Source: Trichuris trichiura (lineage: Eukaryota > Nematoda > Enoplea > Trichinellida > Trichuridae). Taken from it: DNA of 64,000 bases. Made by a program: the position numbers and the translations under genes. Under the pieces are notes generated by a model. It was not told the DNA's origin, did not search any database, and saw nothing but the letters and a program-made list of their open reading frames with translations. Each line of letters opens with the position of its first letter. The stretch's first letter is position 1. The DNA lies in assembly GCA_037903355.1 (NCBI GenBank), contig JBAJFE010000042.1, positions 3,918,001-3,982,000 of the forward strand. The letters are read 5' to 3'. Shown here piece after piece: positions 3,194 through 60,500 of the stretch.

Positions 3194-3231
3194 CCGGAGC
3201 TTTCGGGTCCTTCGCGACCCGTCTTCAGCGG
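3194..3231 (-). ncRNA. hammerhead ribozyme motif, left arm of element A
   Basis: On the minus strand the order is CCG, CTGAAGA core, a 6-bp stem II hairpin, GAAA, GCTC, CGG. The CTGANGA and GAAA boxes are both intact. CCG pairs with CGG as a 3-bp stem I, and CTC serves as the NUH cleavage triplet. Stem III would be the self-complementary AGCT, the short form that usually works as a dimer. Confidence 0.7.
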
Positions 3232-3274
3232 TGAGATTATGTGTCTGCGTCACGTGCGGTCACACATAATCTCA

Positions 3275-3312
3275 CCGCTGAAGACGGGTCGCGAAAGACC
3301 CGAAAGCTCCGG
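3275..3312 (+). ncRNA. hammerhead ribozyme motif, right arm of element A
   Basis: Plus-strand copy: CCG (3275-3277), CTGAAGA (3278-3284), a 6-bp stem II with loop GCGAAA, GAAA (3302-3305), GCTC (3306-3309), CGG (3310-3312). Predicted cleavage follows C3309. All conserved core positions match the hammerhead consensus. Confidence 0.75.
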
Positions 3313-3392
3313 AAGAAAAGAAAAATCTTTTTGTTTTACTTCACAACGGGAGAGAATCCGTAATAAAGATAATTTTCTATATGTGTTGTCTT

Positions 3393-4081
3393 TCCCATTT
3401 TTCCTCTCTCTCAAGACAGTTTTCCTATTATCATTTACTCGCTTTTTCTCTCGTTCGAAAAAGTCTTTTTATTTAGTCATCTATATCTTATTAATATAAA
3501 CTGTTGTTTTCTTTTTTTGCGGTCAAGAAAACGCATTTCTCAGTACATCTTTTAATGTCCAACAAAATCGAAGCTTTCAGATCACCAATGATCCGTCATC
3601 ATCGAAACATTGCAAATCACTGGTTCAGGTGTTACTGTTTGCAAGCTCTTTTATCAGACTAGCTTTTCCAGAGACGTCAGCTGTTGCTTCTTTTTTGAAC
3701 TGTCGAGCACCAGTTCCACCTCGTCTGTCAGGCAGTAGAGCGAGCGCCCATCTGACGGACGACAGCAGTAATATAACAATAAACGAGCAACAACGAGCAT
3801 ACGGACACAATGCCAGGCAATTTTTGAACTAGACAAGTTTCAAACAGTCTTCCCTTGCGCTTAACCTTCATTTTTTGATCCTACCAACTCGTTATCCTTT
3901 CCAGAGTAGCGCCCTGCACGCGAGCTCGCACGCGGAGAAACGGATTTTCTTGACCGCAAAAGAAAAGAATGCTTATCAGATACCTGTTACGAAAGCAGAG
4001 TTGTAAAACTAAACAGTTGTTTTATAATGCTTTACGGTGGTAGGACACCTGGAGTTAATATAAGTTGTTGCTTGTTCACAG
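3393..4081. other. intergenic, nothing recognised
   Basis: AT-rich sequence with no supported gene or repeat. The overlapping short frames at 3625-3836 on both strands are probably chance. Confidence 0.4.
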
Positions 4082-5197
4082 ATGATGGCTCTGAAAGTTT
4101 TATAAATTAGTTTCGCCGTCCTGCTACTCGCTCGCATTGTTGCTTCTGTTCAGAATTTTTTTCACAGGTGTATTCTGTTTCTCATCACCGTTTCGTGGCA
4201 TTATTGACGGAATGACTTCCTTGTGCACTACCATGGGAGCACCTAATGAGCGAAGGTGCATCTGTTGCCCACCGCTCTAATGGACGACACATTTATCTTT
4301 GAGTAAAATAAACTGCGGTGAGAATTGGTGGAAATAACGATAAACCACTTGTCATTTCCACTAATTCTTACCTCTGATGACAGGTCAACGAAGGATCCAA
4401 AAGCTCCGGAATAAAAATCTTGATCATCAATAGGACCTTCGGTATAAAGAACTTTATGACGAATATTTATGCAATTTTAGAAATCAAGTTTCTTATATTC
4501 AAAATAATTTAGAAAGCTCAAGCCAGTTTCGAATTTCAAATCTCACCATCACTGATAGCGCTGGAGCCACTGCCTACCCGTTAAATATAAAGAATCCAAT
4601 GGTGGTACATATGGATTTGGAAAATACCGGGGGGACTGTGCAGAAAATTTCGTCTGACATGACTTTGTATGTGTATGGAAGGATTCTCTGGGGAGAATGT
4701 TTTTGGATCAATGTACCAACGTTCGGACACCTGTAAGTTGCATTACTGAGTAGCTAATGTAGCAATCCTTGTATAGACTTTCACGGTTTCAACCTTAGTA
4801 ATGCTTGGCTTAATGTTTCCAGGAACAATATCAGTGAATGCCAGAACTGCCCCATACAACCAGGCACCTTCAAAAACCTTCGCATTGCATATGATTTGTC
4901 AAAATATCAATGCATACAGACGTTCCTGATATCAGGGGTAAGTCGAATAAACCATGCAAACTTTCAGCATGCACCCACCATGCTAACTCATTCCATGACC
5001 GATGTTAACCGTTTTTAAAAGCAAGAAATTTTGCGACTCATATTTAAATTATTAGTGCGTATACAAGGGGCACAAGAGTTTATGGTTTAACATATTTCCG
5101 AATGACTACGAAAACGAACTTTATTAAAATCAGATATAATGTCTTTGAACTTTCCACACAGTTTTCATACCGAATTTCGAGTTCAGTATGCCTCTAA
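4082..5197 (+). CDS. GM2-activator/ML-domain-like lipid-binding protein gene (4 exons, first exon uncertain)
   Basis: Proposed exons are 4082-4167, 4481-4732, 4823-4937 and 5162-5197. All junctions are GT..AG (donors GTGTAT, GTAAGT, GTAAGT), and the phases chain without a break to 163 codons. Exon 1 encodes a hydrophobic, signal-peptide-like stretch (FAVLLLARIVASVQ). Exons 2-4 contain a WGECFWINVP block, CQNCPIQPGTF and then LISG-FSYRISSS. These resemble the cysteine-proline-glycine and TG-YRIE-SS regions of the GM2 activator family, small secreted lipid carriers that extract glycolipids from membranes. Oddity: codon 8 of exon 1 is TAA. Either the real start lies in an upstream exon (ATTAG before TTTCGCC could be an acceptor) or the gene is damaged. 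A decayed hammerhead motif sits in intron 1. The family call is by eye and moderate. Confidence 0.5.
4371..4409 (+). ncRNA. decayed hammerhead ribozyme motif in intron 1 of the GM2A-like gene
   Basis: CTGATGA (4374-4380) is followed by an imperfect hairpin, AAAA in place of GAAA, and GCTCCGG. A roughly 14-bp inverted repeat (GAATTGGTGGAAAT and its complement) lies just upstream. The stem I base next to the core is mismatched (CCT against CGG), so the copy is probably inactive. Confidence 0.5.
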
Positions 5198-5584
5198 GAA
5201 TGAAATGATTTCGCACGAGTTAACTGGCTACTGCAGTTCGTCATTTCTGAATCTCATTTCTGGAAAGTGCTTCTTCAGATTTCTGAACAAAAAGTAATAA
5301 CTAGAGAGCGTAAAATCTCAACTACTCATGGGCAAAGAAGGTAATTTTGAAATCCTGGAGATAGCAAAGCGTGAAAAGGATGATTCCAGGAGGTGAAGGG
5401 CTAAGGGCGTGATATTGCCCCTAAGGTAGGTGCGGTGCAGCTAGAAGAGCTAATGCTAAATACAGCTGAACCATACCCCCAAAGAATCTATGGGTAGTGG
5501 TTTCTGCTTGGAAAATTTCCGGTGGGACTGGTCGGTCATTCTGTCTTGCTATTTCTTAGAATTCTAAAAATTTGCACGAGAAGG
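5198..5584. other. no feature recognised
   Basis: Sequence downstream of the proposed GM2A-like stop codon. No polyadenylation signal or further exon could be supported. Confidence 0.35.
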
Positions 5585-8473: not shown

Positions 8474-10582
8474 GGGGGATTTGGTTCGATTGCCAAACGG
8501 TCAACTGCCAACAGGTCAATTGCCTAACGGTCGTTTGCCTGAACGGTCATGTGCCCGTCGGGTCAGTTGCCGAACGGTCATTTGCCTGAGTGATTACGTG
8601 CCCGAAGGATTAAGCATGCAATAACTTCTGTTTAACGAAATTGTAAAGCATGGCGCGCTAGCATTATCACGATGAGATTATTTATTACGAGAACACGAAA
8701 CTGCAAGCCTGTGCACGCAAGAGTAACACCTATAACTGGTGTAGAACAATATACGCTATAAGCGTACTCCTGTAAGCAGATTGCAGGCAATTGTGCCCAG
8801 GTAGTTCATAATTGCAGGGTGACTTACTCGATCGTTAATTATTTCCACAAGTTTTTCTTCCTTGCGGACACGACCCTGTCTTCTTTTAGTCGTCTTCTCT
8901 CCTTGTCGGATTTGTTCACATCGGTTTTCAACGTTCCGCTGTTCATTTTGAATTTCATTTATAATTCGGTGCACACCTACATGTGCTCGGCCGACTAAGT
9001 TTCTCCATCTCCTGTGCCATGCCTCCACATTGTTTTTGGTACGTGGCAATCTATTCAGGACGGAGCGATGCACGGACCATAAATTCGGCGGAAACATCGG
9101 TGACGACCGTACGCATGTACCATTGCGCAGCCTTCTCCTTACCTTACCCCTTACGAAAGTTGCATCGAACCATTCTGACAGTTCAGCGGTTTCGATTGGT
9201 ATGCTGTCCTTTATTTCGTCATATGCTTCTGGAATTTCCTCTGGTCGAAGGAATAGCAAAGCGAATAAGTACTTAATTTTTGACCTTAAGCTTGCGTCCG
9301 TGTTGTATCGTGCAGATAATCTACACGACTGAGCTTTCCGCCAAATACACTGTGAAAAATGGAAGTAACAAACTGAGCTTTCAACGCCTTCGAAAGTGCT
9401 TTTACAAGCGTTGATGACGGCCAGCTCTAAGTCTGTCATTATGCCTGCCGGTGTCAGTTGGAATCCATTTTCTACTGCAGAATTAGAGAGATCTTCAAAC
9501 AGTCGCTTGTAAAGTGCCCCTCGTTTTCCAGTCATTATTGCATAAACGAGTGGAAACGTCCTCTGTTTGTCCTGACCGACAGGAGCATGGATCATATACA
9601 GCTGATAAAAGATAGTCGGTACTGTCTTGAAAGTGCCGTCCATTACCCAATAAGAGGCATTTGCAAGCTTCTGAAGATTGTCTGCAGTTGCAAAAATAAG
9701 TAGTTTTCCTTCGGGAATGCTTGTATCTTTAATCATGAATGGCCGCCCATCTAATGTGCTTCGCAACTGCACAGGAATGTCAACGTCTGCCAGCGTTGTT
9801 TGTTCCGGTGGTCGTTGAGCTCGTCGTACTCTTTTCACTATTTGCCGCAACGCATCCGACGATGGTAAAGACGCGACCACATCCAATGAACAATAAGTTT
9901 TGCATGACTGAATTATCTAGCAAAGCAAATCACTGCCACTTCGCGCCACAGTCTTAATTTCTTCAATAACTTTCGAGGCACCTGCTCTACTTGGATTTGG
10001 CATGTGGTTATGGTCCGCAAATGTAACCAGTAGCTGCTGTCCATGTGAAAGTCTCCTACTAACTGCCCGACCATGACAGTACAATGTTTTTCTGCTCTCG
10101 CATGACCAGTAGTAACGATTTCCAGAGCATTTATCCTTCACGAACTAGTATCCTCGCGCACTTAGTTTATCACCAGCTCTCGCAGAACGAACTGCCTCAC
10201 AAATTTCTTCCATAATCATAAACAAGAAGCGGCAATGAACTTCTGCAAATCAGCTACAGCAGCAAATGATTACCCTCAGCAAGCCATTCGTTTATATAAG
10301 CACGTTCTGACCCTAAACGATCATTTGAGACAAATTGCTGATTCGTGGAATTGCATTTTCCAGGAAATTACATTTCCGAGAATCAGCTAATAATTACCCT
10401 CAGCAAACCATTTCTATATATGTATGCACGTTCTGACCCTAAACGAACATCTGAGGCAAATAGCCATACCGGAAATGAATTTCCGGCAAATGACCATCCG
10501 GATAAATGAACGTCCGGCAGACGTACCTTCAGGCAAGCGACCATTCAGGCTAATGACCGTTCGGCAGATGAACGTCTCCCCA
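8474..10582 (-). mobile_element. Mutator-like (MULE) transposon with repeat-built terminal regions
   Basis: A transposase pseudogene lies between two terminal regions (about 8474-8610 and 10450-10582). They are inverted relative to each other, and each is a head-to-tail series of degenerate roughly 18-base units of the type CCGAACGGTCATTTGC. Both outer ends carry GGGG/CCCC. No clear 9-bp duplication was seen, so the exact borders are approximate. Confidence 0.75.
8756..10219 (-). pseudogene. MULE transposase with N-terminal FLYWCH zinc finger, two in-frame TAG stops
   Basis: The frame runs from an ATG at 10219 to a stop at 8756, 488 codons in total, interrupted by TAG near 10147 and at 9917-9919. 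The N-terminal part is FLYWCH-like (YYWSCESRKTLYCHGRA, then DHNHMPNPSRA), a DNA-binding finger common in animal MULE proteins. The rest (376 codons, 9886-8756) is a MULE DDE domain: D in VMDGTFKTVP, D in IMTDLELAVINA, the CYFHFSQ motif, and E in NNVEAWHRRW. Apart from the two TAGs the frame is intact, so inactivation is recent or the stops are the only lesions. Confidence 0.85.
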
Positions 10583-12819: not shown

Positions 12820-12834
12820 CTCCCCCCTGATTTT

Positions 12835-15800
12835 CTAATCACTGTTAATGCGGCAGCGGCGTCGGCGAATTCGCGCGCTGCGTCTCACTGGTGGTTGGTC
12901 AGGTAGTTCTGGCATCATTGGTACGAGTACCTGTTCGGCCACCGCGGTCGTCGTTGTGGAGCCCTCCTGTTCTTCTTCGGGAGCTTCAGAGAGTGCTTCT
13001 AACTCAGGTGCCGTCATGCCGGCATCTGTCTCTGCCAAGGGCATGTTTCGGTCTTCCCTGTCTAGCGCTAGCGTGGGCACCAGATCTTTTGCGTCTGCGC
13101 TGCTCGGGACGCGCTCGCCAACCGTGGAGCTTTCTCCAGAGACACAGTCTTGAAGCGAACAATGCTGAGGCCGGAGCCTCCTTGTCGAACGGCGCGGGAC
13201 TGCTTGGGCCTGTGTTGCTCTGTGCTCAGAGGCGGGCTGATGTAGGGGTCGCCGTTCTGTAGTGGTGCCAATCACAATGCCCGCTGGCTCCCTGCTCCAA
13301 TCTGCAATGGGACCACTGACATCGCCGTCGTCATCGGCGTTAGGCATCGGTCTCGCAGGAGGGATCGGCACGAATCCACGGCGACGGATGTCGCGAACGT
13401 GGCGAGGCACCCCATTGACTTCCACTGCCTGATCCGAGACAAGCCTGGTGACTAAGCCCTCGTCATAGCGGGCGTCGCATCTCCCGCTGCGCGACTTTAC
13501 CCACACGGTGTCCCCGACCGTATAAGGACAGTGCGAAGCCTGGGCATCGCTGCTAACCGATGCTTCGTTTCGGTCCTTCATCGTGTATCGGTAGACTGCA
13601 TTGGCGGGGGCGGTGGCTGCCGACCGATCATCCCGTGGCATGAGATTGTACCGATAGACTGCCTCCTGCGCTGAGCATCCTGCCCTTGCTGCGATCACCT
13701 TGACCGTCCTATGGCACCGCTCTATTATGCCGTTCCCACTTGGGGCATAAGCGCATCGGAAGCGGAGGCGTGTCCCCCATCGTTCAGCCAGCTGAGCGAC
13801 CTCGCGACTCCGGAATGCGGTGTCATTGTCCGCTAGTAATTCGTAAGGCGCGCCGCGCTCATAAAAAATTGATTCCAACTGATGCACGACATCAGCGCTG
13901 GAGCGTTGGTGCAGACGGCGCCAAATTGCAAACCGTGAGGGCCCACAGTCAATCAGAGTTAGGTATAGCTCACTCCCGCAGTGAGCGACATCAATTCCAA
14001 CTCTTTGCCACAGCCTGGGAACCTCTAGCACTCCATGCCTCCATTTTGCAGGAGCCGGGTCGATAGAACGGCAAATGTCGCACTTGCCCACCACGCTGCT
14101 GACATCACGTTTGGATATCCTTGGGTCACGACGGCGGGCAAAGTACAGCGTGCGCCGTACGCCCGGATGGCCCGAAACGCGATGCACTTCTGCAATCAGG
14201 CGTTCAGACGAAATGTCGCCGTCCACCGCGGCGCAGACCGCTTTTTCACTAGGTTCCGTGGGGGCTAACCATCGCTTTGGGACTCTGGTTAGGGTGTCGG
14301 CTTTGTTGTCAGCCGATCGTACTAGGGTGACCGTCAGTTTCAGGTCGTATTCTTTGACCAGAGCCAGTATTGTCTCTATCCGGCGTCGGATGAGCATCTC
14401 GTTGGCCGCCTTCGTTCGCAGCCGGGTCTTGCCTGACAGGCCATCTTCAACCCACCGGTGAACTGTCACAGAGTCTGTCATGAGCTCGATCTCCTTCATC
14501 CGCCAGGCGAGGGCAAGGTTGAGGCCTTTGATCACTGCATCCAGCTCCGCCATATTGATGTGGCGAGCCTCCTCATACGGGCGCAACCACGTCCCATCTT
14601 CTATGATGGAACCGTCTACTTCCAGTGCAACGCCCAAGGCTAGCATGCTAGCATCTACCCACATTCTGGCTTTGCTGCCTGAGACGTCCCATCTACCGTG
14701 CACTGGGTCGTTTGTCTCTAGATTGTCAGCAATTTCGTTCAGCCGCACTCTTATCCGGCCATCATGAATGGGTTCGTCCCACCGTTCCGTTGCACGATTC
14801 GCTTCCCGCTTGACGAAGGCTGAGGCAGCCCTGAGCCAACCGCATACGGGGTAGTGCCCCACTAGTTCTCCGCAATACGAGAACACTGTTCGCCTAGTCA
14901 GGTTCTTGGGCGGACCACTCATTTCGTTGCCTCTTGACCACCGCAGGGAGCCCCGCTCCCCCCAGGCTTTCAGGCCGAGCACACGTGCGCCGTCCGAGAC
15001 TTTCTCAGGGTCCTTGCATGCTAATCCGTACCTGACGAGGTGTCTTCTCACCGTTTCCGCGCTTACGATTCTTTGGTTGACGAAGATGTCGTCAATGTAC
15101 GCTGAAGTCCCTTTCCTTACATCGGGAGCGAGTGAGAGCACATGCCCGACCACGGCTTTCATGATAGTTGGAGCCACATTTAGGCCAAAGCCGAGTCGGG
15201 TCAAGCAGTATCTCCGGCCATGGAGTATCACGGTCTGGAACGGCCAAAGCGATTTGTCAACGCGCACCTGTAGATATGCTTTGTGCAAATCCAAAATTGA
15301 TACGTCTATGCCTTGTCTGCGCCATTCGCGCAACTTCTGAGCACACACGTCACTATTGGCCGTGAATGTATCAATGTGTGCATTCAGTTCCCGGAAATCA
15401 AGCACTGGACGTACCTTGCCTTTGTTGCGCTGTACAACAGCCATGAGAGGAATGAGAGCTCGAGCTGGTCCAAACTTTCTTTCGTCGTACGGAATTAACC
15501 AACCGTTTCGGATCCACAACATCAGTTCCTCTTCATACGCTGATCGGCTTGCGGCAGCAGGCGGATACTCTATTCTGGCGTTCTGCAAGACTTCTGGGGC
15601 ACTGCTATTTGCCCATTTCCACGCAGCCGTCCACGAGCGCGCATTTGGGTCGTAGGTCACGGTGAAATCCTTCTCGTCAATGCTCCTTACGGTGTCGGCG
15701 CCTGCGCAAGTTGCCTTGCTAAACGGATTGAACTGCACGTGCCCTTCGCTGTCCAGCAGAGCTCCTCCAAGTGACCTTATCGCGCTCATGCCTAGTACGA

Positions 15801-16038: not shown

Positions 16039-16055
16039 AGTCGGCAGCGCCTCGT

Positions 16056-16850: not shown

Positions 16851-16868
16851 TGTGGAGCCTCGATAGCT

Positions 16869-17227
16869 TGTAGTTTATATGCAACGTATGGACTTGCACG
16901 CGTAAGGCTGCTAGCACGCAAAGGCTTTGCTTTGTCTTTATTGAGGAACACTAACGAACTGAGTATAAACAACGATCTCGTCGAACACACAACCTTTCAG
17001 GTCCTACCAACCTCTGCGTGGTCCGTCCTTCTCCTTTTATAGTCCTGTTCGCGGGGTCTGGCCAGGTCGCACTGCCATTGGTTGACCATGCCTGTTTTCG
17101 ACATAGGCTTCGTGTCATGGGGCACGGGGAACGTCGTCCAGCGCTGTTTACGACAAGTGCTCTCGTATCGTTGCCCTCTTAGGTCAAACCACCGTTATCA
17201 GAGCTAAACCCCGGGTTATCTGCCACA
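16869..17227 (-). repeat. 5' LTR of the full-length Gypsy element
   Basis: 359 bp, TG...CA on the minus strand, one base different from the other LTR. It contains the promoter (ACTATAAAAGGAG). The bases just inside read AGCTATCGAGGCTCC; the primer tRNA was not identified. A similar AGTTATCAAGGCTC follows the LTR end of the fragment at 33346. Confidence 0.95.
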
Positions 17228-20354: not shown

Positions 20355-22926
20355 TTTTAAAATGAAACATTCTTCAAGGGGAAACAAGCTGTTTCAAGAT
20401 GAAATCTCGTGAGCTTAATCATGGAGGCACGATGTGATTATAAAGAAGCTGCCTGCTGAAGCCTCCAGATTTCAATGCGTCAACAAGCTGTAGAATTTTA
20501 TCGTCACGGAGTTGTCTGATTATTTCAATCAGCAAATTGTCTCCAGAATTTATCCTGACTGTCAGCTGAAGACAGGTTAAGGCCTAACTGGTAAGCTCCA
20601 CGGTCAACCTTTCTGATTGACATAACGGGACAGTACCGTAACAACAAAATTGTATTCTCTGAATGAAGTACTACTGCTCCATGCCAAGAAACTACGCACT
20701 GAAAGTGACAATGAGCTGGCAATAAAGATCAGAGAAAAGGCATTAAGGCAAATTTCTTACTGTTGTAGGACGAAGGGGTTTGGACTGCTGCGATCCTATA
20801 GGAAAGCCGGCATTCTTTTGAAAGAAGACGGGCGAAAATGCCAAAAGTAGGCCATCCCCAAAAATGCGGGAATGGAGCTCGCTAGGGTGAAAGATTAAGC
20901 ACGTGAAGCCATAGTGATTGGTGTTCGTTTTTCTGGCTTGTTCCCACGTATTGCATAAAGGAAGACACTTTGAAGAAAATAATTGTCCGGCGGATAATGC
21001 AACGCGTACTTAAGTGATATCCACCACGTGGCATCTTGCAGAGTGTAAAACTGCGGCAAGCATATCTACTGCAGTGACATTCTAAATATAGAGCACACTA
21101 TTCTGTTACTGCAGCAAAAGTCACTGACTATCGCATTTTGCTGTTTGTTTTAATTGTTTTACAGCTGTCTTGTTGTAACTCCGTCTCTTTGCAATGGCAT
21201 GTTGTTCTCTTACATGACCTCCTCCTTCCCCTCTTTCTTCTCCCTTCTCCTTCTTCTACTTTCCTTCTCTTCTGCCTTTCTCCGCTTTCTCTTTATCTCT
21301 CTCTCTCGTTCTCTCCGCCTTCTTTTCCTTTTCGTACATCGGTATCACCTCAACCCTGAATGCATTACAGCTATTCTCAGTCCAAAAATTTCAGTCTTCC
21401 TTTTTAACCTAAATCTCTTTTCGCTGTTACCTAAATTCAATTTAAATTAATTCAGTTTCTCAATCACGCTTCAGTTCCCCTCACTATCCCCATCGACCCT
21501 CCACGTGGTAGAAGGGATTAATTTTCACAGTTCCAGCACGATAAGGACAACAACGCAGGCAATCCTCCTAACCGGCATAGATCATTAGAAAAAACCAAAA
21601 TCCGGACATACTTTAAATACGTTTTTCACCCCCACCCCTTGTGACTTTAATAACTTCATCCTGTCCCAATGTTAACCATCGCACATAGGTCCTGTTGTTG
21701 TTATCGTTGACAACGGAGCATGAAAAGCTCTGAAAGCTTCGAAGGACTGTTTAGTGTTAAGTGAAAACAAACGCTTGTACCTTTCCGTAACAAAAACATG
21801 CACATGAAATTCAAAAACAGCGTTAAAAAGTCATTTGTTTTCAAAGGCTAAAGGATAGGCAAAAGAAATCGACGTAAATATGCTTTAAAAATAGCTGGTC
21901 TCCCTTTCATCTTGGCGAAACATGATTTTTCAGTCACTGCCGGACAGGACGACTGTTCTGTCGTACTGTGGCTCCTGGACTACCGTTCATGGAACTGTTG
22001 TTACTGGGGGAAGGGAGAGGTGGGAGGTTCAGTTACGTGAGGTCATTAAATCGCGTTATGAAGGTTTAGCAGTAACAATCAACATTCAGCGCACAGACAG
22101 TAATTTCGAAACAATGCCAATGCAAGGGTTTACAATTGATTTACCCAACTAAACGTTTTGCTGGCTTTAACGTTTAATTTTTAATATGAATTGCTGCACG
22201 TTAACCTGTCTGAAAAACAGTGTAACGCGCAGTGTAGAAAAGGACGTGCGCATCAAATCGCACCACTGTACGCCATGAAGGAAGACACGTGGTTGCGGTT
22301 GTTCGCTGAGGGTAGCACATTCCGTCTCGTTCAGTGTGTTCTGTTTTCGTTCGTGTTCGTTCAGTAAAGCGTTCCTCTGTTGGTGTGACTGTTACAACAG
22401 TGCTGTATAAGAAACAGGAAGATACAAACTAAACAGGGCAGTTAGCAGTACGGATGGAATATTCATTTCCAAGTTAGATACTCTATTTTCTTTGCTGAAA
22501 CCCGGTTTCAGCAAGGTGTCATACCTCAGTCTGTTTAACTCAATCAAGAATTCCGGTAAAGCTCTTCGTACGCTACAAGATCCCACGCGCTATGTGAGAC
22601 GAGACCGAGAATCAATGTACGTTGGCGCACACGACGGTGGGAGGTGTCTCCCAAAAGCTTCGCTTTTTTAAAGCGTTCAAATAAACGGTTATCCTTTTGT
22701 ATTGCACAGCATGAAAATCTTGTTACAGCACAACTGGTCTTACAACGAAGTAAAACATCACTAGCTGCATCACTAAAACATACTGTTGCGAACATCCTTA
22801 ACATGACCACATTGTGATGTTATTTCAATCAGTGGAAATACATTTGAGTGGAGAATGGCTTGGATACAGAAGAATAATTTCGGTTGCTGGCTTTACTGGG
22901 ATACAGCAGCAATTAAAAAAGCCTTT
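20355..22926. other. intergenic with a pyrimidine-rich tract; no supported gene
   Basis: About 120 bases at 21215-21335 are almost pure C/T on the plus strand (CTTCCTTCTC type), which makes the overlapping frames uninformative. Frames at 20650-20850 (+) and 22544-22810 (-) show no family features. Confidence 0.4.
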
Positions 22927-25238: not shown

Positions 25239-25347
25239 TGAGGCTTTAAAAGTTTTGAAGACGTGGTTTCTTGGTACGGGACCGTATGTTTTCATAATGA
25301 AAAAGCTTTAATACAGACAGATTCCCGTTTTTATGTGTGAAAAAACT

Positions 25348-25385
25348 CCGGAGCTTTCGAGTCAATCGAGACCCATCTTCAGCGG
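25348..25385 (-). ncRNA. hammerhead ribozyme motif, left arm of element B
   Basis: Minus-strand CCG-CTGAAGA, a stem II with one mispair, GAAA, GCTC, CGG. The core is conserved, and stem I is 3 bp. Confidence 0.65.
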
Positions 25386-25413
25386 TCTTAAATTATCTCA
25401 TCTTAATTTAAGA

Positions 25414-25451
25414 CCGCTGAAGACGGGTCTCGATTGACCCGAAAGCTCCGG
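25414..25451 (+). ncRNA. hammerhead ribozyme motif, right arm of element B
   Basis: Plus-strand CCG (25414-25416), CTGAAGA, stem II GGGTC/GACCC, GAAA (25441-25444), GCTC, CGG. The self-complementary CTCCGGAG around the cut site could form stem III between two molecules. Confidence 0.75.
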
Positions 25452-25522
25452 AGTTTTTTCACACATAAAAACGGGAATATATTCGTAATAAAGTTTTTTC
25501 ATTATGAGGCTTTAAAAGTTTT

Positions 25523-26649: not shown

Positions 26650-27058
26650 AATTAGGCTACCTTGAAAACTGGATGTTTTGTAACGGGTTGAATTTTCATG
26701 GTTGTAAGGTTTTCTACGGCTTTTCCCGTTTTTCGTTGTGCTGTTATCTGTAATTAAACTAAAACAACTGCTCTACCAACGGATGGATGAGCCGTTATTA
26801 AGAAAAGTACAGATATCAACGCACTCAAGTTTTTTATTGTTCAAAGCTTTCGGAACGCTCTAGTTCCGTCGTCAGTGAGGTGGTGGAGCTACGAAAGCTT
26901 TGAACAATAAAAAAGTTGAGTGCGTTGATATCTGTACTTTTCTTAATAACGGCTCATCCATCCGTTGATAGAGCAGTTGTTTTAGTTTAATTACAGATAA
27001 CAGCACAACGAAAAACGGGAAAAGCCGTAGAAGACCTTACAACCAATTAGGCTACCTT
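26650..27058 (+). mobile_element. hammerhead-ribozyme foldback element C with 14-bp TSD
   Basis: The insertion at 26664-27044 (381 bp) lies between AATTAGGCTACCTT duplications (26650-26663 and 27045-27058). The leader GAAAACTGGATG...GTAACGGG...TTTTCATGG is followed by inverted arms of about 160 bases. The right arm has lost the 5' half of the ribozyme. Arms and ribozyme are closely related to element D at 45878. Confidence 0.85.
26841..26878 (-). ncRNA. hammerhead ribozyme motif in element C
   Basis: Minus-strand TCA-CTGACGA, stem II CGGAAC/GTTCCG, GAAA, GCTT, TGA. Stem I is TCA/TGA here rather than CCG/CGG, so both strands changed together. The cut triplet would be CTT. Confidence 0.75.
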
Positions 27059-45500: not shown

Positions 45501-48500
45501 ACTAGACATCCATAACTGTTTATAAAATTGGCATAGGTGCTTCTCCTCTTACAAGCTATCGATAGAAGCAGCAAATATTTAAGATTCATGAGTTCCAAGA
45601 GCGTCGAGCAAACTTGCAACGTCACCATAGGAAGAGGCTCGTAAAACAATTGCACTAGCACGATAAATATAACCCCAATAAAGGCCATGAGCTACATGGT
45701 TAAAACGTTTTCATACTTCAGAACTTTAACCGTTCGCTATAGTCAACTGCTCATACTAATCGTAAAAATAATTTCTCTCATAAAAGGTAACGGTCTTATC
45801 TTCTCCTATCATAACTTTGATAATTTATTAAATCAGTGTACCTGTTATATAAATTAGTGGAATTAAGGAGCATTCTTGAACACTGGGTGCTTCGTAACGG
45901 GATTGGTTTTCATAGTGTCTGATCTTCTACGGCTTTTCCCGTTTATCTGTTGTGCTTGTATCTGTAAATTAGACGAAACAACTGCTCTACCAACGGGTGG
46001 ATGAGCCGTTATTAAGAAAAATTGTACAGATGTCAATGCACTCAACTTTTTAATGTTCAAAGCTTTCGGAACGCTCTAGTTCCGTCGTCAGTCAGTCAGT
46101 CCACCACCTCACTGACGACGGAACTAGAGCGTTCCGAAAGCTTTGAACATTAAAAAGTTGAGTGCATTGACATCTGTACAATTTTTCTTAATAACGGCTC
46201 ATCCACCCGTTGGTAGAGCAGTTGTTTCGTCTAATTTACAGATACAAGCACAACAGATAAACGGGAAAAGCCGTAGAAGATCAGACACTATGAATTAAGG
46301 AGCAGTTTTAACAAATGTAGCACCACCAGTTTCATAATTTAAACCTTATCCATTGATTTTCCTATGGATGGTGAAGAACTAAAACTTTTAATCCTCTCTT
46401 CCTAAAGCCATGAGAGAAAGCCTCAGACATTCGTATTGCCTATGTTCAGTACTTCTTGCTATCAATAAGTAACTTCATGTTCCTCGCAGATCGATCTTTC
46501 GTTGCTGATTATGCTCTTTAACAGCAACAACCTAAATCGACCTATTCCAACATAAAAAAGACTTGGACACGGACAATGAGCCCACCTAATGAGCGATTAA
46601 GTAGCAATGTTTATTTGATTGCTGTTTTTGTTACGTGCTAAATCCCTAATTCTGATCACCTAGGTCGTGAATTGAGAACCAAATTTCAGTTTACACAAAC
46701 GCCTTATTAGGCTGAATATCGCCAGCATTTATGGGAAGTTAGCAAACTGGGAGAATTGTGTCACCATATGATGTGGGAGTAAATCTTAAGGTTGTTTTTC
46801 TATTAATTCTTCATGTTGTACTCTTTCTGTACGGAATGTAGGTCCCGTTTGAAAACTTTTAATTACTCCGGAGCTTTCAGGTCGATTGTGACCCGTCCTC
46901 AGCGCTCTTAAATTATAGATCTAAGTTAATTTATTAATTCTTAGTTTAATTTTCGCTGAAGAGAGATGTTTTCAAGACGGAAGCAGTGATTTCCTTCCTT
47001 GTTAGAACAATAAAAGGCAATAAATCCCTGCAATCAGGCTGAAAACTATTGATACTTTTCTCACCATGATAAGCTCGATTTTGAAAAGAACAGCGTTGGT
47101 ATTTTCGACATATTATTATCGCACAAATATTTGTTTCGTCTTGCGGACTGAAAATAAAGTGCATACCATTTGGCTGACTAATTTCCCACAGTTGCATGGA
47201 GGTTCTTCATGTTGACGTTGGTTGATTCTTTCAGGAACCGAGTTATGCTTCCAAGGAGCTATCAACGGAGGTTCAATAGCGTTTAACTTCACTGGAGGAG
47301 GAAGTCGATGTAAGGGTGTCAGCAGCGGTTTCTCTGAGATTGTAGGAGCTTCGCTTTGAGCGGCTGACCTTGTGAAAGCAGAGCGTATTCTCCTGTCGTT
47401 CTGTCTCTTTACCGTATAACTGACCATCGCATATTCAATTAGTGCACAGAAGACAAGAAGAAAGCCGAAACCCAAGTATATGTCAACCGCCTTAGCATAA
47501 CTGACTTTTGGTAATTGAGAGTTAGTACTGGTCATGAGCGTTGTCATTGTCAGTACAGTCATTATGCCCAGCGTGACTCTTGCTGGCGCTGAATCACGGC
47601 TTATCCAGAAGGATACCCAAGAAATCGTTACCACCATAATCGATGGTTGGTAAATTTGTACCCAATAAAAGCCAAGATTTCGAACGAACGTTAGATGTAG
47701 AGATAACCTCGAGTAGTCTCCTGAAAGGTGCATTTGTGCAAATGTGCTGCTCTCTTTAAGCTTATTAAAAATTTAAGGCTACTATTATGTTTCACCTCTG
47801 TATAATGAGTTGCGTGCGAATTTACCTGTGCTAAGAGATATCTTCCTTTCGACTATGTAAAGATCTTCAAGTTCGAAGGTAGGCAATTTGCGAATTTCTT
47901 GATCAAACGTGACTGAGTTGTATCCTTTGAGCCAATATAACTTTATATCAGCGTCTGAGTAACCATCTACAGAAAACATTTGTCTTGAGGTTTCAAGTAA
48001 AGATTCATGCAAATATGAAGTTTCAGTGACATAGCTGTCGTAATTCTGTGCACCAGTGGAACAGTCCTGCGCGCAAAAGTTATTTTGAAATACTTTAACT
48101 GTGGTACGTTAATCAATCTTTTAAAAATACACTTGTTTACTATTCAGAACTCAGAAAACGGTTCAAAGTTTAAATTTTATAATGTTGCATCCTGTCAAAG
48201 CACAGAAAGTTCAGTTTATGCACTGAAGTAATGATGAACATTAACTCTATCGTAGTGAACTTGAGCAGCAGGCAGCTCGGCCATTGGCTGAGCATGCGGC
48301 ACGCTTCGCTGAGCCAGTTTCAGGGAATATTAACATAGCAACAATAAGCAGTGTTTGCTCCCTTTTCAGGAATTCGCCCGTTGCGCCTACCCGTTTTGGA
48401 ATGCTTTCGCTCAGACTGGACGTTAAGTTTTCATAGGTCGTTCACTTTTGATGATATTTCGTTCCTGCTGAGGAAGAATACTGTTATCCAGTAGATGCCA

Positions 48501-51500: not shown

Positions 51501-54500
51501 ATAGGACATTCATAAAAAGCTGCTGAAACTTGACGACATTTTCAAACAGACACTTCTCTCTTCAAAGTAGTGGCCTCTGTTCACTTTAAATTGATCGCCA
51601 CTCACAAACTTTAAGCAGACTCGTTGGCACCTGACGATATCACTCAATCATTATGCACTGATGACAGATCAGGAAAGGTTTAAAAGCTTTGCAGTATTAT
51701 TGAATAATAAAAATCCTAGGCAAAACGAGTTAACGCAGCTGTATATATACTACCGCAAAGTGGTTCTGGCAACTCTGAAAACTAGTTGTTGTTCTGACGT
51801 TTTCTCTGACAAGTGCTCATGCGTCCGTTAATAGTGGGCTCCTTTAGTTAACTTCTCCAACCTCAGAAAAACAGGCAATAAAAAAGTCTTACCGAAAGCC
51901 ACCACCATGAAAGCCGTTTAATATGAACAATAATGATATTATCAATATTAATAGTACTTTTGTTGTTGTTTCATGCAATATTCATTTACGGAAACAACCG
52001 TTTTGCTAATAAAAGAAAAGAAAAACTCGATTTCGTGGCTAGCGAAGCTAACTTTGTCCATTCATTAGCGAAAAAGTGATTTGTGGGAGAAAAAAGAGAA
52101 AAGAAATCAAAAGAAAAATAAGACAAGATTCGACCAACTATAAGTGTCCCCAGCCTACGATGGGTTCAGCTTTACGATGTTCTCAGAAATTGCGTACGTT
52201 CACTTCAAAGTGGGCACTTTGTTTTCTTCTCAGGGTAGCTATATGCCGTACAATACACGAGTAGTTCTCGTGTAACACCTGTTCTTATAGTGCGTTTTAG
52301 CTAATAAGTAACTTTGAAACTGCAACACTTTTTCACATAATGTGATTTCCTTTATGCCCATGCTTGATTTTGCCGGCTGGAAAATGTGGGCACATGGCAA
52401 AGTCTACATATATTTCTCATCTGACCACGCCGAACACAAGTCACGTTTTCACTTTATGCGCATTCTACAGTGATGCAGAAATGAAACAATGATTGTACTG
52501 TGATCGAACATTTTATGACTCATATCGGAGACCGTAATTTGCGAATGGTCGCTGGTAACATCGTAGAAGCTTGGAAAAACGTGACTGCATCAGTTTGACC
52601 AGTGACGTGCCAGCAGACGTTCTGCCATTGGTTATGCGCTGAAGACAGGAACCAGTTGTTCCTGAGAGCTTCGCCAATAAAACATTTAGCTGGTAGTAAT
52701 TCCGTATTAACATTATGATTTTCCACACATCCGTTTGGAAGAGTTTCGTTTTTAATGCAAGCTCCTTAGCGAAAGTTTAACCATTGCTGTGGCGGTGCAA
52801 GCAGGAGGATGAATCCCGTAGGGCACAGAGCGAGGATACACAGCGTGAAGACCGCTCTGAGTAGTCTTGCACAAGTATGGCCCAACCGCGGTCGCACCTT
52901 AATGGGTGCAATGACCAGTGTCTGGGGCGAGACTGACCGCGGCATGTGGTCCCTCAAATGCGAACCGATGATAAGGTCGCGCCAAAGTGAACTCAGTCAC
53001 CCTGATAATGGAGTCATCATGCCTTATATAAGGAGGCATTGTTTTCCCCAACCCGACTCTTTCCTTTATCGTACACTCGCTTACATCACTAAACAGTTCA
53101 GTGAATCGAAGCCTTCGTTCTTGGCGCAAGTGTTCTCCCACAATTGCTAACTCATCAGACGCTGCAGAAGCTACTGAGCAGCAGTAATGGTCGCTCAAAG
53201 TCATTAACTACAATGTGAAATGCTGGAAGATGGCGAACAGGAGTCTGACCTAGCTTGGAGCCATTTCCAGGCATTTCTTGTATAACGCGAGAGTTTCTTC
53301 ACTTGAAATTCCTAAAAAACCTCGCGTTATGTGAAATCGCGTTATAAAAGACACGTAAACTATGGGAAAATTACGATTTGGTACAAACGGTCAGAAAGAT
53401 TACTTGCTTCTAAACAATAACGAAAAAAAAATCATAAATCAGCTGTGTTAGAAAAGGAATTATGCTGTATCTCAGCTATTTATGCGATTGTTAGAATGCA
53501 GAGGTATGTACGCTCTTTCACAGGATCTGAATGACGTACTGTTTTTTTTATAGCCATCAGAACGGGGTAACCTTTTTATGACAGAACTCTGCACAGCAGA
53601 GATGGTTAGAAGTGGCTTTCGAGAGCTATATGCTTTTGCTTTCAGCTTATGGAAAAATGTCCTCCTCTCTGTTCAGAAATTGATGAACTTCTACCTAGAT
53701 AAGAATGGTGGTCCACTGGAATCATTTTTTTATTTCACTGTGTTTAGTTATGAGAGAACTGAGGTCTTATTTGACGTAGAAGGCAGTAATCCGTGGTCCT
53801 TACAACTTTTCTTCATTGCAGTAATAAGGAATTTGAGCTTCTTTTGTTTTGCACAGCATTTCCTTACACGGCTGCAAGCTAGCTTAGATACCTGTCGTAG
53901 CTATCTTGCTTTGTTTTGCATTGCAGTCATTGTCCCCGGGCCGCTGAAAGCGCCTCTCAATACTTCCTGGAGCATCTGATAGGTCAGCAATGGTTAACTT
54001 TTCCTGGGGAGCTTCGTGGGTTTTACTATCATCTGCTTCTTAACTTCCTTCTGCTTCATCTGCAGCTCCTCGTCGGTCAGCCCACATAGTTGAATGCTCA
54101 AAACGTCTCCAAAGTTCTGATATTCAGCTTCTTCAAAACTGAACCTGTCTACTAGCTGAAAGCAGCTTAAGACGGAAAGCCTTTAAAATTGCAGATGAGA
54201 TCTGGGATACATTTTCTTCAAAAACGATTCAACAGTTGCGTCGACACATTTTTCCAAGCTTCTACAACGCTAATAACGGTCATTCAGAAGATACGGCTTC
54301 TGACATGAATCATAAGCGGTTTTGTCGATAGAATGACCGCTTCGCTTGTGCGCGAGTGAAGAACGTGCGTAATATCAAAACGTGACTTGTGCTCACTGCC
54401 GTCAGATGAAAAATAGAGGGAGTCATTGCCTTATGTAAATGCTTTCCAGCTTGCGAAAGCGCGCATGTGCGAAAAACAAGATTGTATGAGAACTGCCTAT

Positions 54501-57500
54501 AAAAAACCCTTGCGGAAGAGTGGTTTTTGGCATTTTGAGGGACGTCTGAATAGTGAACCTGCGAAGTGAACAATTTTGATTGCCTTGAATTCATATCGAT
54601 AATGCCCACAGTTCTCTTGACCTCCTTTGTTCTGTCTTTTTTTCGCTTCGAAGGACGAATAAACGTACTTGAGTATCAAAGAGGAAATATCGGCATCTAG
54701 AATTGCTTGTGATAATGCATTAAGGCAGCAAGTTGTAGCTCCGTCTCGCAACCTCGAGAGTCAGCAACGAACAGCCTAACCTGGACTGAGCTACTCATGT
54801 TTATTAGATGTTGTTCTTTGTGTTTATCGATTTCTTCATGCTTAAATAAAACGTGTCCCTGACATACGATGGGTTCGAATGCGGAACATATCCGCTTCGA
54901 AATTTGTATTTTATTATTTATATGTACGTGTGTACCAGGAATAGCTATTGCGAGAAATCTGAGAAAGCTGACAGCCAGATTGAAGTGATTTCGCTAGTTA
55001 CTAAGAAATGTACAAGGGAATGCAGCAGAGCATAAAAATGAAACTTGCTGCCTTCCTAACTCCACCTCCTAGTATGCTATCAATCATTGCGGGGTGCATT
55101 CTTTCGGCTGTCATAGAATGAGGTAGGGAAAGAAATTCATGGGGTTGTAGCTATTAATTTTTTGCAAGTATCAGTTGGGTACATTGAACGGATGAATGAG
55201 CTCTCGTATTTGCATGTACCTTAATATAGTTGCCATATGTGGGTTCTGTCTTTTACATTGGTTTCCACTTATTTTTTCAACGGGAATAAAATTCATATAA
55301 GGTTTTTTCTTATTTGTCACGTAGGAACAGAATTTGATGAGTCAAGCTCAAGTCGACAGGTAATCACGTCGGCTGGTGACAAAGAAGAGATCTTCCGAAC
55401 AGCCAGTCCCAGTGAAGGACAAGAAAAACTGCTTTTTGTGTTTCATGCGCTGAAGACAGCCCAAGGGTAGAACTGAAAGTTCCGCAAACGTTTTGTGATG
55501 TAAAACGGGATTTCTATGACAAGAGAAGAAAAACATCTATACGGAATTATATGTATTATATGTATTATTAACTCCAAAGCAGAATTGCTGTATTACAAAG
55601 CAGTCTTCAACGACATGATTTTCCCCTACTGGAAGCTGATCTGAGAGTTTTATCTTGTTAAGACTGGCTAAACGAACCTTTCATATTTAAACGGTTTTAA
55701 TTTTTAGTATGTGCTCTCTGCCAAATCATCAACTAAGCCCTGCCCCTTGGCTAAGTTGGTTTTAGGCGTCAGAGACAGTAATCTGCATATCATTGATGCT
55801 TTATCCAGCGGCAGCGAATTCGCTTGTTTATCTAAATGTTACAGGTAAAGTCACACGATCCAAGGGGTCACCGACTTACGATGCATTTTGTTGCAAGCGT
55901 TTCATCGAAAGTCGAAACCACCGTAAGTCGAAATGCATAATCAGCGCATTTAATGCCCAACCAGACCGCGGAGGCAGTGATTTAGTGCTGGTAGTTTCCC
56001 CATTAGTTTCCGTTGGCCACACATAAGTTCAATGCCATCATTGGTATACGTTTAGGTTTCAGGTTTATGCTGAGATGAAGTTTAAAAGTACGGTATTTAA
56101 CCGACATCAGCAAATGAAAGGCGAACCACCCCGATGGGATATCCTCGCAGCGAAGTGGATATGACGAACTGTAACGAACCTACACTGATGATTAGAACCG
56201 CGTGAGTGTGAAAGATTCGTATAGTCTGTCTTAATAAAAGCTAAACTCTCAGATTAGCTTGTAGTTGAGAAAAACCATGTCGTACAAGACTGCTTTGTAA
56301 TGCAGGAATTCTGTTTTGAATTTATTAACATGGAGCTCTGTATATGGTATTCAACTACATTAATGTACATATATGTGCCAGAGCTCACTGATCCGTTCGA
56401 TATACCCAGCTGATACTTGCAAGAAAATAGTAAAGCTATTAGTAACGACCCAATGGAGTTTTTTCCCTTGTTGACTCAATGATAGCTTGATGAAGGCATT
56501 CCGGCGGTGACGGATAGCGTACCAAGAGGAGACTACGTTAGGAAGGCACCCAGATTTGTTCCTATGCTCTGCTGTAAGCCACTGCACATGTCTTTGTGAC
56601 TAGCAAAGCATTTGAACCTCTCGATCAGCTTTCTCAAATCTCTCGCAACAGTTATTTCCCATATATACGTACATATAAACAACGAAATACAAATTTCGAA
56701 GCATGTTCCACTATTGAATCCATCGTAAGTCAGAACATTGCAAGTCAGGGCTCCACTGTATTTACACATACTCAGAGGCACGACGAAAAGGGAGAAAGAC
56801 GACTGGCGCAAACACTGATTGCTGGCAGAACTTCGCTCAGTTTTCGTGATGCTGACTTTCAGTAAACTCCCTTCTCTTATGAGAGTGTCGCAATAGGTTC
56901 TTTACAGTTCGTCACATCCATTTTGCCGCGAGGATCTCCCCGTGGCTGTTCGCCTTGCCTATGCTGAAATCAGCTCTATACAGTGCAGTTCCACTTCATC
57001 TTAGCATAAGCCTACGCCTAAACGTATGTTAATGACGGCATTGAACCAATGGGTGGCCAACGGAGGCCAACGAGAAAACTACCAGCACCAAAGCACAGCC
57101 TCCGCGGTCTGATTTGGCATTAAATGCATTGATTAGGCATTTCAACTTACAATGGTTTCAACTACGATGGAACGCCAGGAACGAAATGCATCGTAAGAGG
57201 GGATCCCCCCTGTTCCAGCTGCTTAGTAATAGGCCGACAGGGTATCACTCTATGAAACAGCATTTTGCCCTTGGTAACGTTCCTGCCAGGGAAGGCAAGC
57301 ACGCAAAGGTTTAATAAAAATTCTGCAATTGATGGAACAGTAATTAAGACAATACTAAGACCTGGAAATGGCGTACGGTTAGGATCATGCGAAAAGGACG
57401 TTCTAGAGGACTGTGGAACTCCCGACCAAGATATTATTAGTGCGAAGTTGTAAGGAAGTCAAGGCAAAGGAAATAATACATAACTTAACAGGGAAGTTCA

Positions 57501-60500
57501 AAGCAAAGAAGCTGGCTCTGTTATTAGCTACTACCAGCAGTGCCGTACTGATGTCAACAGAAATGAATCTCAATTATGAGATCCGAGAGGCAGGTTGAAG
57601 ATGCTCTCGCTTACGGCGGAGGAATATATAGCGAAAGAAATTTGAGAAAGTGGAAGCGTGCTTCCATCATTAAGTTTAAAACAAATTTACGAGGTTGCCA
57701 CGCAGTATTCTCATCATTGGATAATTAAGTTTGGTTCAGCGTATCGAACGTTGTTCGGATCAGTGCTTTTTCACGTGTAAGTATGTAAACGGTACCCGTA
57801 AATAAGATTTCGTTTCTTACTTTCATAGTATCAGTAGTATTTCATGCATAAAATTTTCGTCAAATAAAGCAAGCACGTAAGTTGTTTTGCGTTATATGGT
57901 TTTACTCATAAACATACTGATTACGTTCAGAATAGGCTGTACTGAACTATGATCTTTAGTATGATACGGACTACTTAAGCCCCTCGGCTTAAAACTGCTT
58001 CGAGTTTTGATGGGGCGGTTGGAACAAAACGCTATCGTGTAGCCAGGGCACGCTGCGTAAATGCGCTAAGGAAGGCCGCACTGATAGGAAATCCTTTTCA
58101 TAAATTTCTTCAAACGTCATCTTATATGGAAGAATATGTCGTTTACTTGGAAAGTATGAAATATGAGCTAAGTCTTACGGCGCTTTTCTTCCTCCGTTTC
58201 CATCAGTGTTAAAAGTAGCGACGAAAAGTTCAGTCGGAAATTTTCTCTGAAACGCTGATGACGGAACAAGGCCTATTCTGAAAACTCTGTTATTTGTTTG
58301 CAATAAAGAATTTGCATCGCATCGATTTCATTCAACAGGACAACGTCGTAAAACAGAGGAACACTTAGCATTAGTCATACTGTTGCTTACCATATGATTG
58401 TTACATTGAAAATTCAATTATCAGTTCCATTCAACCGGTGTTATAAACTTTTTTGTAATGGATATGATTCTTTTATACATAACTTGGCCAGTTACCATCC
58501 GTTTGACTATTAATACTGTAAATTTTTTATTACAGAGCTTTTAGCTTCACCATGCCTCACCTTGCCCTTTCATCAGTCAAAATGCATTGTTTTATGTGTA
58601 AACGACTTGAACATAGGCCGCTACTATCAAAGTCAATGGCACTTTTACCACAATATATGAATCTGTTTTGAGTGAATACATCACCCAAAATTTCATTCTT
58701 CGCTTTGAAATATTATTCGATGCTTTCCAAGGGCGAATGCTTTAGCAATTAAATCTTTCAGCAGACATGCATCTTAAAAGTTGCTTTTTGAATTACTGAT
58801 AACTGCTGAAGTATATTTCAATACTTGAAGTTAAATGAAAAATGCACCTGAAAGCAGAGCTTTTTTAAGTGTTGCCAAACTTCCATAACCGAGCGTCATT
58901 CTTAAATGGGAAAGAACAAAATGCAAAATAGCACAAGTCATCCTCAGCTCTATGGACGGGCACCATAAGAAACTGAAAGAGGAAAATTATAGACTGAAAG
59001 ACCAATGTGAAAAAACATCTGAACTCTTTCTTCGTAACGGGTTTTTTAAATTTTATTCTGAAATTTTCGCGGGATTTTTTAACCTGTTCTTGGTTAAACG
59101 TTTATTTTAAAAAAACGTTTACGGAGCTTTCGGGCCTCTCCGTTTTTTTTCCTGGTTAAACGTTTATTTTAGAAAACGTTAACGGAGCTTTTGGGCCTCT
59201 CCGTGGCCCGTCATCAGCGTAATTGTACCGCCGGTCGGGTCAGCCTTTATGGTTGCAAGCCGCTCCATCCGACCAGCTTTGGCAGAGACCTACTGCCGTC
59301 AGCTCTATCTTGAACCGTCAGGTTTCGGTCGCGCCTAGTTAGTCAGACAGCGCAGCGAGGCCGGATGGAGCGGCTTGCAACCATAAAGGCCGACCCGACC
59401 GGCGGTACAATTACGCTGATGACGGGCTACGGAAAGGCCCGAAAGCTCCGTTAACGTTTTTTTAAAATAAACGTTTAACTAAGAACGGGTTAAAAAATCC
59501 CGCGAAAATTTCAGAATAAAACATCTGAACGCCGCAAAATGGAGTAATATGCACTGGATATATGGATAATTTTGAAAAAGGTCTCACAGGCAATACTTTG
59601 CAATTTATTTAAATTCTCGGGTTCCGTAGCATGCCTCCTTTAGAACTATTTCCTACGCTCTGATTTACTGTCTGTGTTTCTGTGGGATTGACACTGAAGT
59701 CCAGGAAGGCCTGATTCCTAAGCTTCTGCTATAAAGAGTGTAATGTCTCTAGTTGATAAATTATAAAAATGGAGTAACGCCGTTATAGGGAAGAATGCGC
59801 AATATCATTTTTATGATTAGTAAATAAGTTCTTCTGTAGCAAGCATTTGTGAATCTTTCAAAACCCTCATTTTCTGCATCAGCGTTCTGTAATGATAAAG
59901 TAATTCGTCTCTAAAGAACATGCTCAGCCATAAAAATCTAGTTGATTCTGAGCACTATTTCATTAAATTCAAATGGATTTGAAATCGTTTTCTCAGCCAT
60001 AGCTTTCCTCTAGTGGAAAGTCCCAAAGAGTGAAAGCTGTCTGTGCCCTATAAATTTCCCATGCACTTCGTTGTTGTGATATGCGCAATAGCCATCCTCC
60101 TTTTGAAATAGAACATGTTATTGGAAGACACTTTTAATTTCAGTTTTTAGGTGTTTCGATGCATACGCTTCTTCTTAAATGAAGAGCATGCGACTAGTAG
60201 GTTCACGGATGTTGAAGGAACAGATATCTCTGTTTTGTTAGAGTTTGAAGACTACTGCGCAACAGTGGAGAGAAGATATAAGAAGAAAAAATTAGAACAG
60301 AACGTCCAACGGTGAGTAATTGAAAAAAATGCAAGGTTTTTACCACAGGAAAAGACCGTGCATTTGCGATGCAATTCCACTTCCTATCTGCTTTCGGCAG
60401 TAAAGCATAGCTAATCACCAAATCACTGAAGCACCGGAAAGTTAGCAGAGTTGACAAAAGCTGTGTGCAACTTAATCTCAGATATTATTTTCGCTGTAAA

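Follow-up and report, generated by a model that had tools for sequence, protein, structure and literature searches.

Candidate minimal hammerhead ribozymes without stem III in Penelope-like elements of Trichuris trichiura, and the structure of their insertions

Minimal variants of the type I hammerhead ribozyme have reportedly been found in Penelope-like elements (PLEs) by Cervera and de la Pena in 2014 and by Lunse, Weinberg and Breaker in 2017. Here we analysed a 64,000-nucleotide stretch of Trichuris trichiura DNA (C2:3918001-3982000 of a 72.7-Mb assembly, hereafter the window), in which motifs of this kind lie in the pseudo-long terminal repeats (pLTRs) of such elements. According to the accessible text of two reviews, the PLE motifs consist of the core, stem II and a short stem I, have no helix III and are localised in pLTRs (PMC6155905, PMC7761336); the second review adds that motifs in tandem may cleave as dimers, and describes the role of the hammerhead in PLEs as unknown (PMC7761336). 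The Penelope elements of Adineta vaga, as far as the accessible part of their description goes, have inverted head-to-head pLTRs, an optional tail of 31 bp on one of them, target site duplications (TSDs) of 8-10 bp and TATA/Inr-like motifs, and the word hammerhead is absent from its main text (PMC3846280). For the Poseidon element PAc of the lizard Anolis, the accessible text reports that both DNA strands are cut and extended, that two internal start sites of the reverse transcriptase (RT) bound the tail, that no start-site difference was seen between strands, and that hammerhead activity was dispensable for insertion in vitro (PMC11167929). Metazoan retrozymes, in the portion of the review available, are non-autonomous retroelements with type I hammerheads, repeats of 150-300 bp and circular RNA, many with a weak or stable helix III (PMC7761336).

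The motifs analysed here share with the published PLE hammerheads the core, stem II, short stem I, missing helix III and pLTR location. They differ in their host, a trichurid-like nematode, in a stem III face that is nearly always AGCU, with an additional ACGU lineage, and in being known from sequence. As in the accessible account of Adineta vaga, we found inverted head-to-head pLTRs, a tail on one of them, TSDs and a TATA box; unlike there, where the tail is optional, the one-tail pattern was near-universal (PMC3846280). The hammerhead of PAc, as described in the text available, overlaps the start of the open reading frame, whereas in the present elements it precedes the pLTR end by about 175 nt (TCA lineage) and follows the inferred RNA start by 12-13 nt. 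The layout of metazoan retrozymes, as accessible in the review, is unlike that of these elements, the shared feature being a type I hammerhead in a retroelement. Minimal PLE hammerheads, pLTRs, tails and TSDs are thus already published, and the identification of a hammerhead is itself expected for PLEs. In the literature searched, part of it accessible only in excerpts, we found neither PLE hammerheads in a trichurid-like nematode, nor a near-universal one-tail rule, nor a test of the cut site by insertion ends.

In the present elements the stems are paired and covary, the motif is associated with PLEs, and the insertions are single and bounded by TSDs. These are probably minimal, stem-III-less hammerheads of PLE pLTRs that would cut as dimers, with insertion proceeding through two-site priming on uncut RNA.

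Hammerhead motifs and stem covariation

A strict motif, composed of CTGANGA, a stem II of at least 4 bp, GAAA and GCTH, occurred nine times in the window, and seven of the nine had all three stem I pairs; its count was 0 in 200 dinucleotide-preserving shuffles and 0 in the reversed window sequence. The original prediction had placed this motif at five or more loci, where it could be read directly. A covariance model (A2/R1), built from 23 rows all outside the window but including other copies of the same families, gave 19 matches in the window up to E 1, 17 of them at E<0.001. All previously named loci were included, with E between 6e-14 and 3e-9 for five of them and 7e-4 for the decayed copy at 51.66 kb. 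Genome-wide, one exact 31-base core occurred 305 times, and 0 times in a backward control, and one pLTR lineage had 582 matches.

The loci of the window were the following.

3072..3389, no strand: PLE palindromic (head-to-head pLTR) insertion flanked by TSD TATATGTGTTGT (3072-3083, 3378-3389); only the left arm tailed, the tail ending TTCAAG
3194..3231, minus: minimal hammerhead, left arm, stem I CCG/CGG; model E 6e-13
3275..3312, plus: minimal hammerhead, right arm, stem I CCG/CGG; model E 2e-13
25242..25520, no strand: PLE palindromic insertion flanked by TSD GGCTTTAAAAGTT (25242-25254, 25508-25520); only the left arm tailed
25348..25385, minus: minimal hammerhead, left arm; model E 1.5e-11
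25414..25451, plus: minimal hammerhead, right arm; model E 6e-14
26651..27056, no strand: PLE palindromic insertion whose right arm is 5'-truncated within stem II, flanked by TSD ATTAGGCTACC (26651-26661, 27046-27056); only the left arm tailed
26841..26878, minus: minimal hammerhead, stem I TCA/TGA; model E 1.4e-12
45862..46304, no strand: PLE palindromic insertion, arms 99% identical, flanked by TSD ATTAAGGAGCA (45862-45872, 46294-46304); only the left arm tailed
46057..46094, minus: minimal hammerhead of the left arm, which is cut short at the core (TGA; stem I 2/3); model match
46109..46146, plus: minimal hammerhead, right arm, stem I TCA/TGA; model E 1.4e-12
59016..59530, no strand: PLE palindromic insertion, third family, flanked by TSD CATCTGAAC (59016-59024, 59522-59530); only the left side tailed
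59182..59220, minus: minimal hammerhead, left arm, stem I ACG/CGT, A replacing G before AAA; model E 3e-9
59413..59451, plus: minimal hammerhead, right arm, stem I ACG/CGT; model E 2e-9
46868..46905, minus: additional, partly decayed hammerhead, stem I 2/3; model E 1.2e-8
58252..58290, plus: additional decayed hammerhead, stem I ACG/TGT, GAAA-ACT; model E 6e-7
3568..3605, minus: additional decayed hammerhead, core ATGATGA; model E 1.1e-7
21704..21742, plus: additional decayed hammerhead; model E 4e-6
52636..52674, plus: additional decayed hammerhead; model E 7e-6
55447..55485, plus: additional decayed hammerhead; model E 3e-5
4371..4409, plus: additional decayed hammerhead; model E 9e-5
51655..51692, plus: decayed copy named previously, stem I GCA/TGC; model E 7e-4

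The earlier list of loci was incomplete, lacking the mostly decayed copies at 46868(-), 3568(-), 58252(+), 21704(+), 52636(+), 55447(+) and 4371(+). The five named loci are palindromes, so that two motifs at a locus are the two arms of one insertion and not independent copies, and the 26.8 kb locus keeps the motif on one arm only. The stem I pairs put forward (CCG/CGG, TCA/TGA, ACG/CGT and GCA/TGC) were present, except that the left-arm motif at 46057-46094 is preceded by TGA, not TCA, and forms two of the three pairs. Within the window, three families and some decayed copies are the basis for covariation of stem I, which becomes firm with the genome sample described below.

A relaxed scan, covering 55 loci as well as the window, yielded 50 distinct motifs. 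All 39 that lay outside the TCA family were aligned together with two TCA rows, giving an alignment of 41 rows (A1). In A1, 91.9% of cells were paired, with the pairing of stem II partly built in because the scan required it; stem I was not required, and two-sided changes were found at all three of its pairs. None of 500 shuffles reached the covariation score or the percentage paired, and pairing was 4.5-51% when the partner was moved by 1-3 columns.

The genome sample, 264 kb in total, combined the window with 20 segments of 10 kb taken at even intervals along contig C1. It contained 49 model matches up to E 0.005, of which 12 were rows used to build the model. In the alignment of these sites (46 distinct rows, decayed copies included), whose fitting to the structure biases it in that direction, stem I was paired in 91.9% of cells. 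Two-sided changes were found at all three stem I pairs and at five of the six stem II pairs; again 0 of 500 shuffles reached the covariation score or the percentage paired, and the slid controls collapsed. The core (CTGANGA, AAA, T, then non-G; the G before AAA not counted) was intact in 34 of the 49 sites and degenerate in 15. Among the intact ones, stem I had three of three pairs in 25, two in eight and one in a single site. The covariation of stem I across families and the conserved core argue for the hammerhead identity originally proposed.

Carrier elements and their insertions

The proposed link to Penelope also held, the motif being localised in the pLTR of elements whose sister copies carry RT (PF00078) and GIY-YIG (PF01541) frames. 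One element (L011) has a 304-aa frame with the RT match followed by the pLTR and hammerhead, and a head-to-head copy of its 3' part on the other side; an element of the CCG lineage (L043) has a similar layout with the GIY-YIG match. The two domains were scored in separate truncated copies, and open frames of at least 900 aa with an RT match exist. The top database relative of the L011 RT was a Trichuris suis protein (66% identity), and its relatives were Trichuris RTs. A GABA-receptor-like exon of the window had mixed matches, with a tick entry ranking first and a Trichinella protein second. The L011 RT matched the genome at least 131 times (a few of the matches are split). Many of these matches lie in long open frames and many have the same score, suggesting recent activity. 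Several PLE lineages carry the motif, and they appear abundant and, judging by near-identical copies, recently active.

Each of the five palindromes of the window is one insertion with a target duplication of 9-13 nt. For the TCA family we assembled 15 palindromes from 100 listed places, with outward-facing arms within 2 kb that both contained the exact 31-mer; the two cores were less than 150 bases apart in 11 of them. The TSD was at least 10 nt in 12 of the 15 (counting L059, whose TSD lies within a microsatellite and is doubtful), 6 nt in two and absent in one, while none of 210 mismatched flank pairs reached a duplication of 8 nt.

A tail of about 39 nt, from ATGAAA to TTCAAG, was present on exactly one arm in all 15 TCA palindromes and, read by eye, in the four other palindromes of the window. 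Further palindromes came from overlapping sets of 18 and 30 regions; 17 were classifiable, some of other families, and 16 were one-tailed. The tail was thus on exactly one arm in 35 of 36 classifiable palindromes. It was called by eye, the tail pattern not firing, in L041 at 1980 (partial tail), L028 at 1506, L013, L009, L035 and L020. Regions were left out when they had no inverted repeat of 40 bases (11 of the 30), when the repeats were not about the pLTR, or when the ends were too diverged or cut (L034 at 4278, L043, L039, L037, L028 at 1125 and L040 at 1). The tails of different families recurrently contained CCCGTTAC or a CCCGTAC motif.

The two arms differed at a mean of 3.9 sites within an insertion versus 12.6 between insertions, and therefore most arm pairs seem to derive from one source. 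In L057, which has a 14-nt TSD, the arms differ at five sites where both variants are common elsewhere, which allows two templates without proving them. The number of such sites was 18 in L059 (no clear TSD), three each in L014, L026 and L020, two in L049 and one each in L050 and L041; there were none in the other 18 of 26 insertions. The L059 pair (C2:4278570-4280170) lies in an ATT repeat, and its upstream halves are nearly identical, while the pLTR halves belong to two subfamilies and switch at the hammerhead, as if template switching or recombination had occurred there.

Insertion ends and the stem III face

The hundreds of copies of one pLTR lineage make the insertion ends readable as a fossil record. 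Among 80 arms of the TCA lineage, 42 began at -18 to -7 relative to the core and 14 extended upstream beyond -60; the commonest start was -12/-13, with 30 arms. Fifty of the 80 arms lie in chosen loci and carry the intact core, a bias towards such starts. Of the other 30 arms, five started at -13 to -11, one at 33 beside the cut and one far upstream, the rest being scattered. There is a sharp peak of arm starts, yet many arms are shorter. A TATATAA box in L018 starts 43 nt before the core, so that transcription could plausibly begin at -12/-13, which lies 30-31 nt after the box.

The sequence just 3' of the predicted cut was found in 352 copies, 308 of which had GAAAGCTY directly upstream. Among the 100 copies listed, ten lacked GAAAGCTY; eight of these had an altered or partial ribozyme upstream, and two, which share the same geometry and a 4-nt microhomology, could begin at the cut. 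One arm (L014) started one base from the cut site, and none of the 18 arms from the window and the C1 sample started within 30-34. That inserted copies begin at the hammerhead cut site is therefore unsupported, as at most two of the 100 listed arms could do so. Nearly all copies long enough to reach the cut position extend beyond it; this suggests that the templates were uncut and agrees with the lizard PAc, whose hammerhead mutants, in the accessible text, had no effect on insertion in vitro (PMC11167929). Separately, L061 (contig C1) and L066 (contig C2) share an unusual head-to-head junction with a GCTC microhomology at the cut site; perhaps this palindrome was copied as a unit.

Stem III is absent from the motifs, its place being taken by A-NN-U without a loop: two letters, T and one more base stand between GAAA and the cut. 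In the 49 sites the dinucleotide at this face was GC in 41, CG in four, AC in two, GT in one and TC in one, giving the self-complementary AGCU or ACGU in 45. Being self-complementary, the place of stem III could therefore form pairs only if two copies met. A change from GC to CG would, in a symmetric dimer, pass via GG or CC and break both pairs, and neither GG nor CC was seen among the 49 sites. When the 46 kb motif was co-folded as two copies, the energy was -25.1 kcal/mol versus -8.7 for one, with pairing through AAAGCUUU. From the self-complementary face, and from the accessible text of two reviews (PMC6155905, PMC7761336), we infer that the missing stem III would be formed by the AGCU (or ACGU) of two copies, the motif cutting only as a dimer. 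Assays of cleavage and of RNA dimers could test this proposal. At L044:9260-9298(-), L046:1570-1608(+), L048:7769-7807(+) and L039:1898-1935(-) the dimer face belongs to a lineage that has GAAA-CGT where the other has GAAA-GCT.

Explanations for the insertions, and other elements of the window

In the reading that we favour, the RNA would begin about 12 nt before the hammerhead and, uncut, would be reverse transcribed from both sides of a staggered cut. One priming event would start at the tail site and the other at the pLTR end, and these two different start sites may explain why exactly one arm is tailed. The two cDNAs would end at the RNA 5' end or earlier and would then be joined head to head. 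The insertion ends suggest uncut templates and two start sites per insertion, and an observation made in vitro on a lizard PLE is turned into a rule testable in natural insertions.

Several results weigh against this reading. The original prediction had named a covariance-model search as its check and absence of a score above background as part of its refutation; taken literally, this was the outcome with Rfam, although the purpose-built model scored far above background. No hammerhead family was found with Rfam at the gathering threshold, at E 5, or at E 10 on two stretches of 71 and 63 bases, the output consisting of palindrome-driven microRNA matches and chance matches only. The motifs lack the marks of a classical type I hammerhead, namely a closed stem III and an Rfam score, with 0 Rfam hammerhead matches and no stem III loop; the silence of Rfam is likely due to its hammerhead models expecting stem III. 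Six window motifs folded singly had only a small advantage over shuffles (z -0.9 to -2.2). In four of the six the best fold contained stems I and II as expected, and the best single-strand fold of the 59 kb and 51.66 kb motifs was not a hammerhead. On a weaker measure of covariation, which counts the pairs changed on both sides, A1 had 7 where shuffles averaged 5.2 (48 of 500 shuffles did as well), and the 49-site alignment had 8 where they averaged 5.6 (21 of 500).

The remaining points of this kind concern the dimer and the ends. Four of the 49 motifs have no self-complementary dinucleotide at the stem III face. Co-folding of the 3.2, 25.4 and 59 kb motifs gave a small gain over two monomers and predicted a different pairing, so that the hammerhead-like AGCU pairing appeared only for the TCA motif, one of the four tried. 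The second motif of a head-to-head copy is antisense, and a dimer therefore needs two transcripts or tandem pLTRs. Among the 18 arms from the window and the C1 sample, five started at -13 to -11, one far upstream and 12 were scattered. Finally, the L020 palindrome has two tails and no TSD; it may represent two insertions.

The head-to-head arms might instead have been made by self-priming, that is, by hairpin copying rather than priming on both strands, which we regard as unlikely. The smaller divergence of arms within an insertion (3.9 vs 12.6 sites) fits such copying, as do the arms of L049, L052, L056 and L058, which share variants rare elsewhere, and in the accessible text on Adineta vaga self-priming on an antisense template is favoured for Penelope (PMC3846280). 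Simple self-priming is disfavoured because the two arms should then be alike at the tail, a self-copied arm having one only if its template did, yet exactly one tail was found in 35 of 36 palindromes. The arms of L057, which has a clean TSD, moreover differ at five sites with both variants common in other insertions.

It is rather improbable that the motif is passive, conserved only through the youth of the copies and belonging to a ribozyme no longer active or selected. This would agree with the copies that extend past the cut position and with the lizard PLE hammerhead mutants that, in the text accessible, left insertion in vitro unaffected (PMC11167929). Without past selection for the fold, however, it is hard to account for the GC/CG exchange at the dimer face and for the compensatory stem I changes between diverged families.

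We give somewhat less credence still to the idea that selection has acted on the hammerhead mainly as a module for RNA-RNA dimerisation and less for its cutting. A pair of RNAs joined via AGCU near their 5' ends would enter one insertion complex, where the two sides of the staggered cut would prime one RNA each, from different start sites; the head-to-head, one-tail insertion would be the product, and cutting would serve as an off-switch for paired templates. The single tail in 35 of 36 palindromes, the near lack of starts at the cut site, GC or CG in 45 of 49 sites and the arms of L057, an insertion with a clean TSD, which look like two subfamilies, are compatible with it.

Foldback or MITE-like DNA transposons (MITE, miniature inverted-repeat transposable element), with a hammerhead-like core in their terminal inverted repeats by chance, are extremely improbable and were rejected: the near-perfect inverted repeats with TSDs fit them, but the outer ends are not identical, differing by the tail on one arm in 35 of 36, the inner ends are variable, and longer copies have RT and GIY-YIG frames. 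Equally improbable, and likewise rejected, are non-autonomous retrozymes (small circular-RNA retrotransposons with type I hammerheads) instead of PLE ends, for although the copies bearing the hammerhead are short (under 150 bases between cores in 11 of 15 palindromes), they are head to head in all five window palindromes rather than tandem monomers delimited by hammerheads, carry PLE pLTR and tail sequence and lack stem III.

Three other elements were seen in the window. At 40355-44665 there is a large inverted duplication with arms of 2115 nt (94%) and an 81-nt spacer; a transposase-like frame is present in both arms, and no Pfam match was obtained with the frame of the one arm tested. The region 12835-16874 (-) contains the pol of a long terminal repeat (LTR) retrotransposon, with RT, RNase H-like and integrase matches in one frame of 1114 aa, and a separate upstream frame of 272 aa. 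A frame with a MULE transposase domain (PF10551) lies at 8756-9916 (-).

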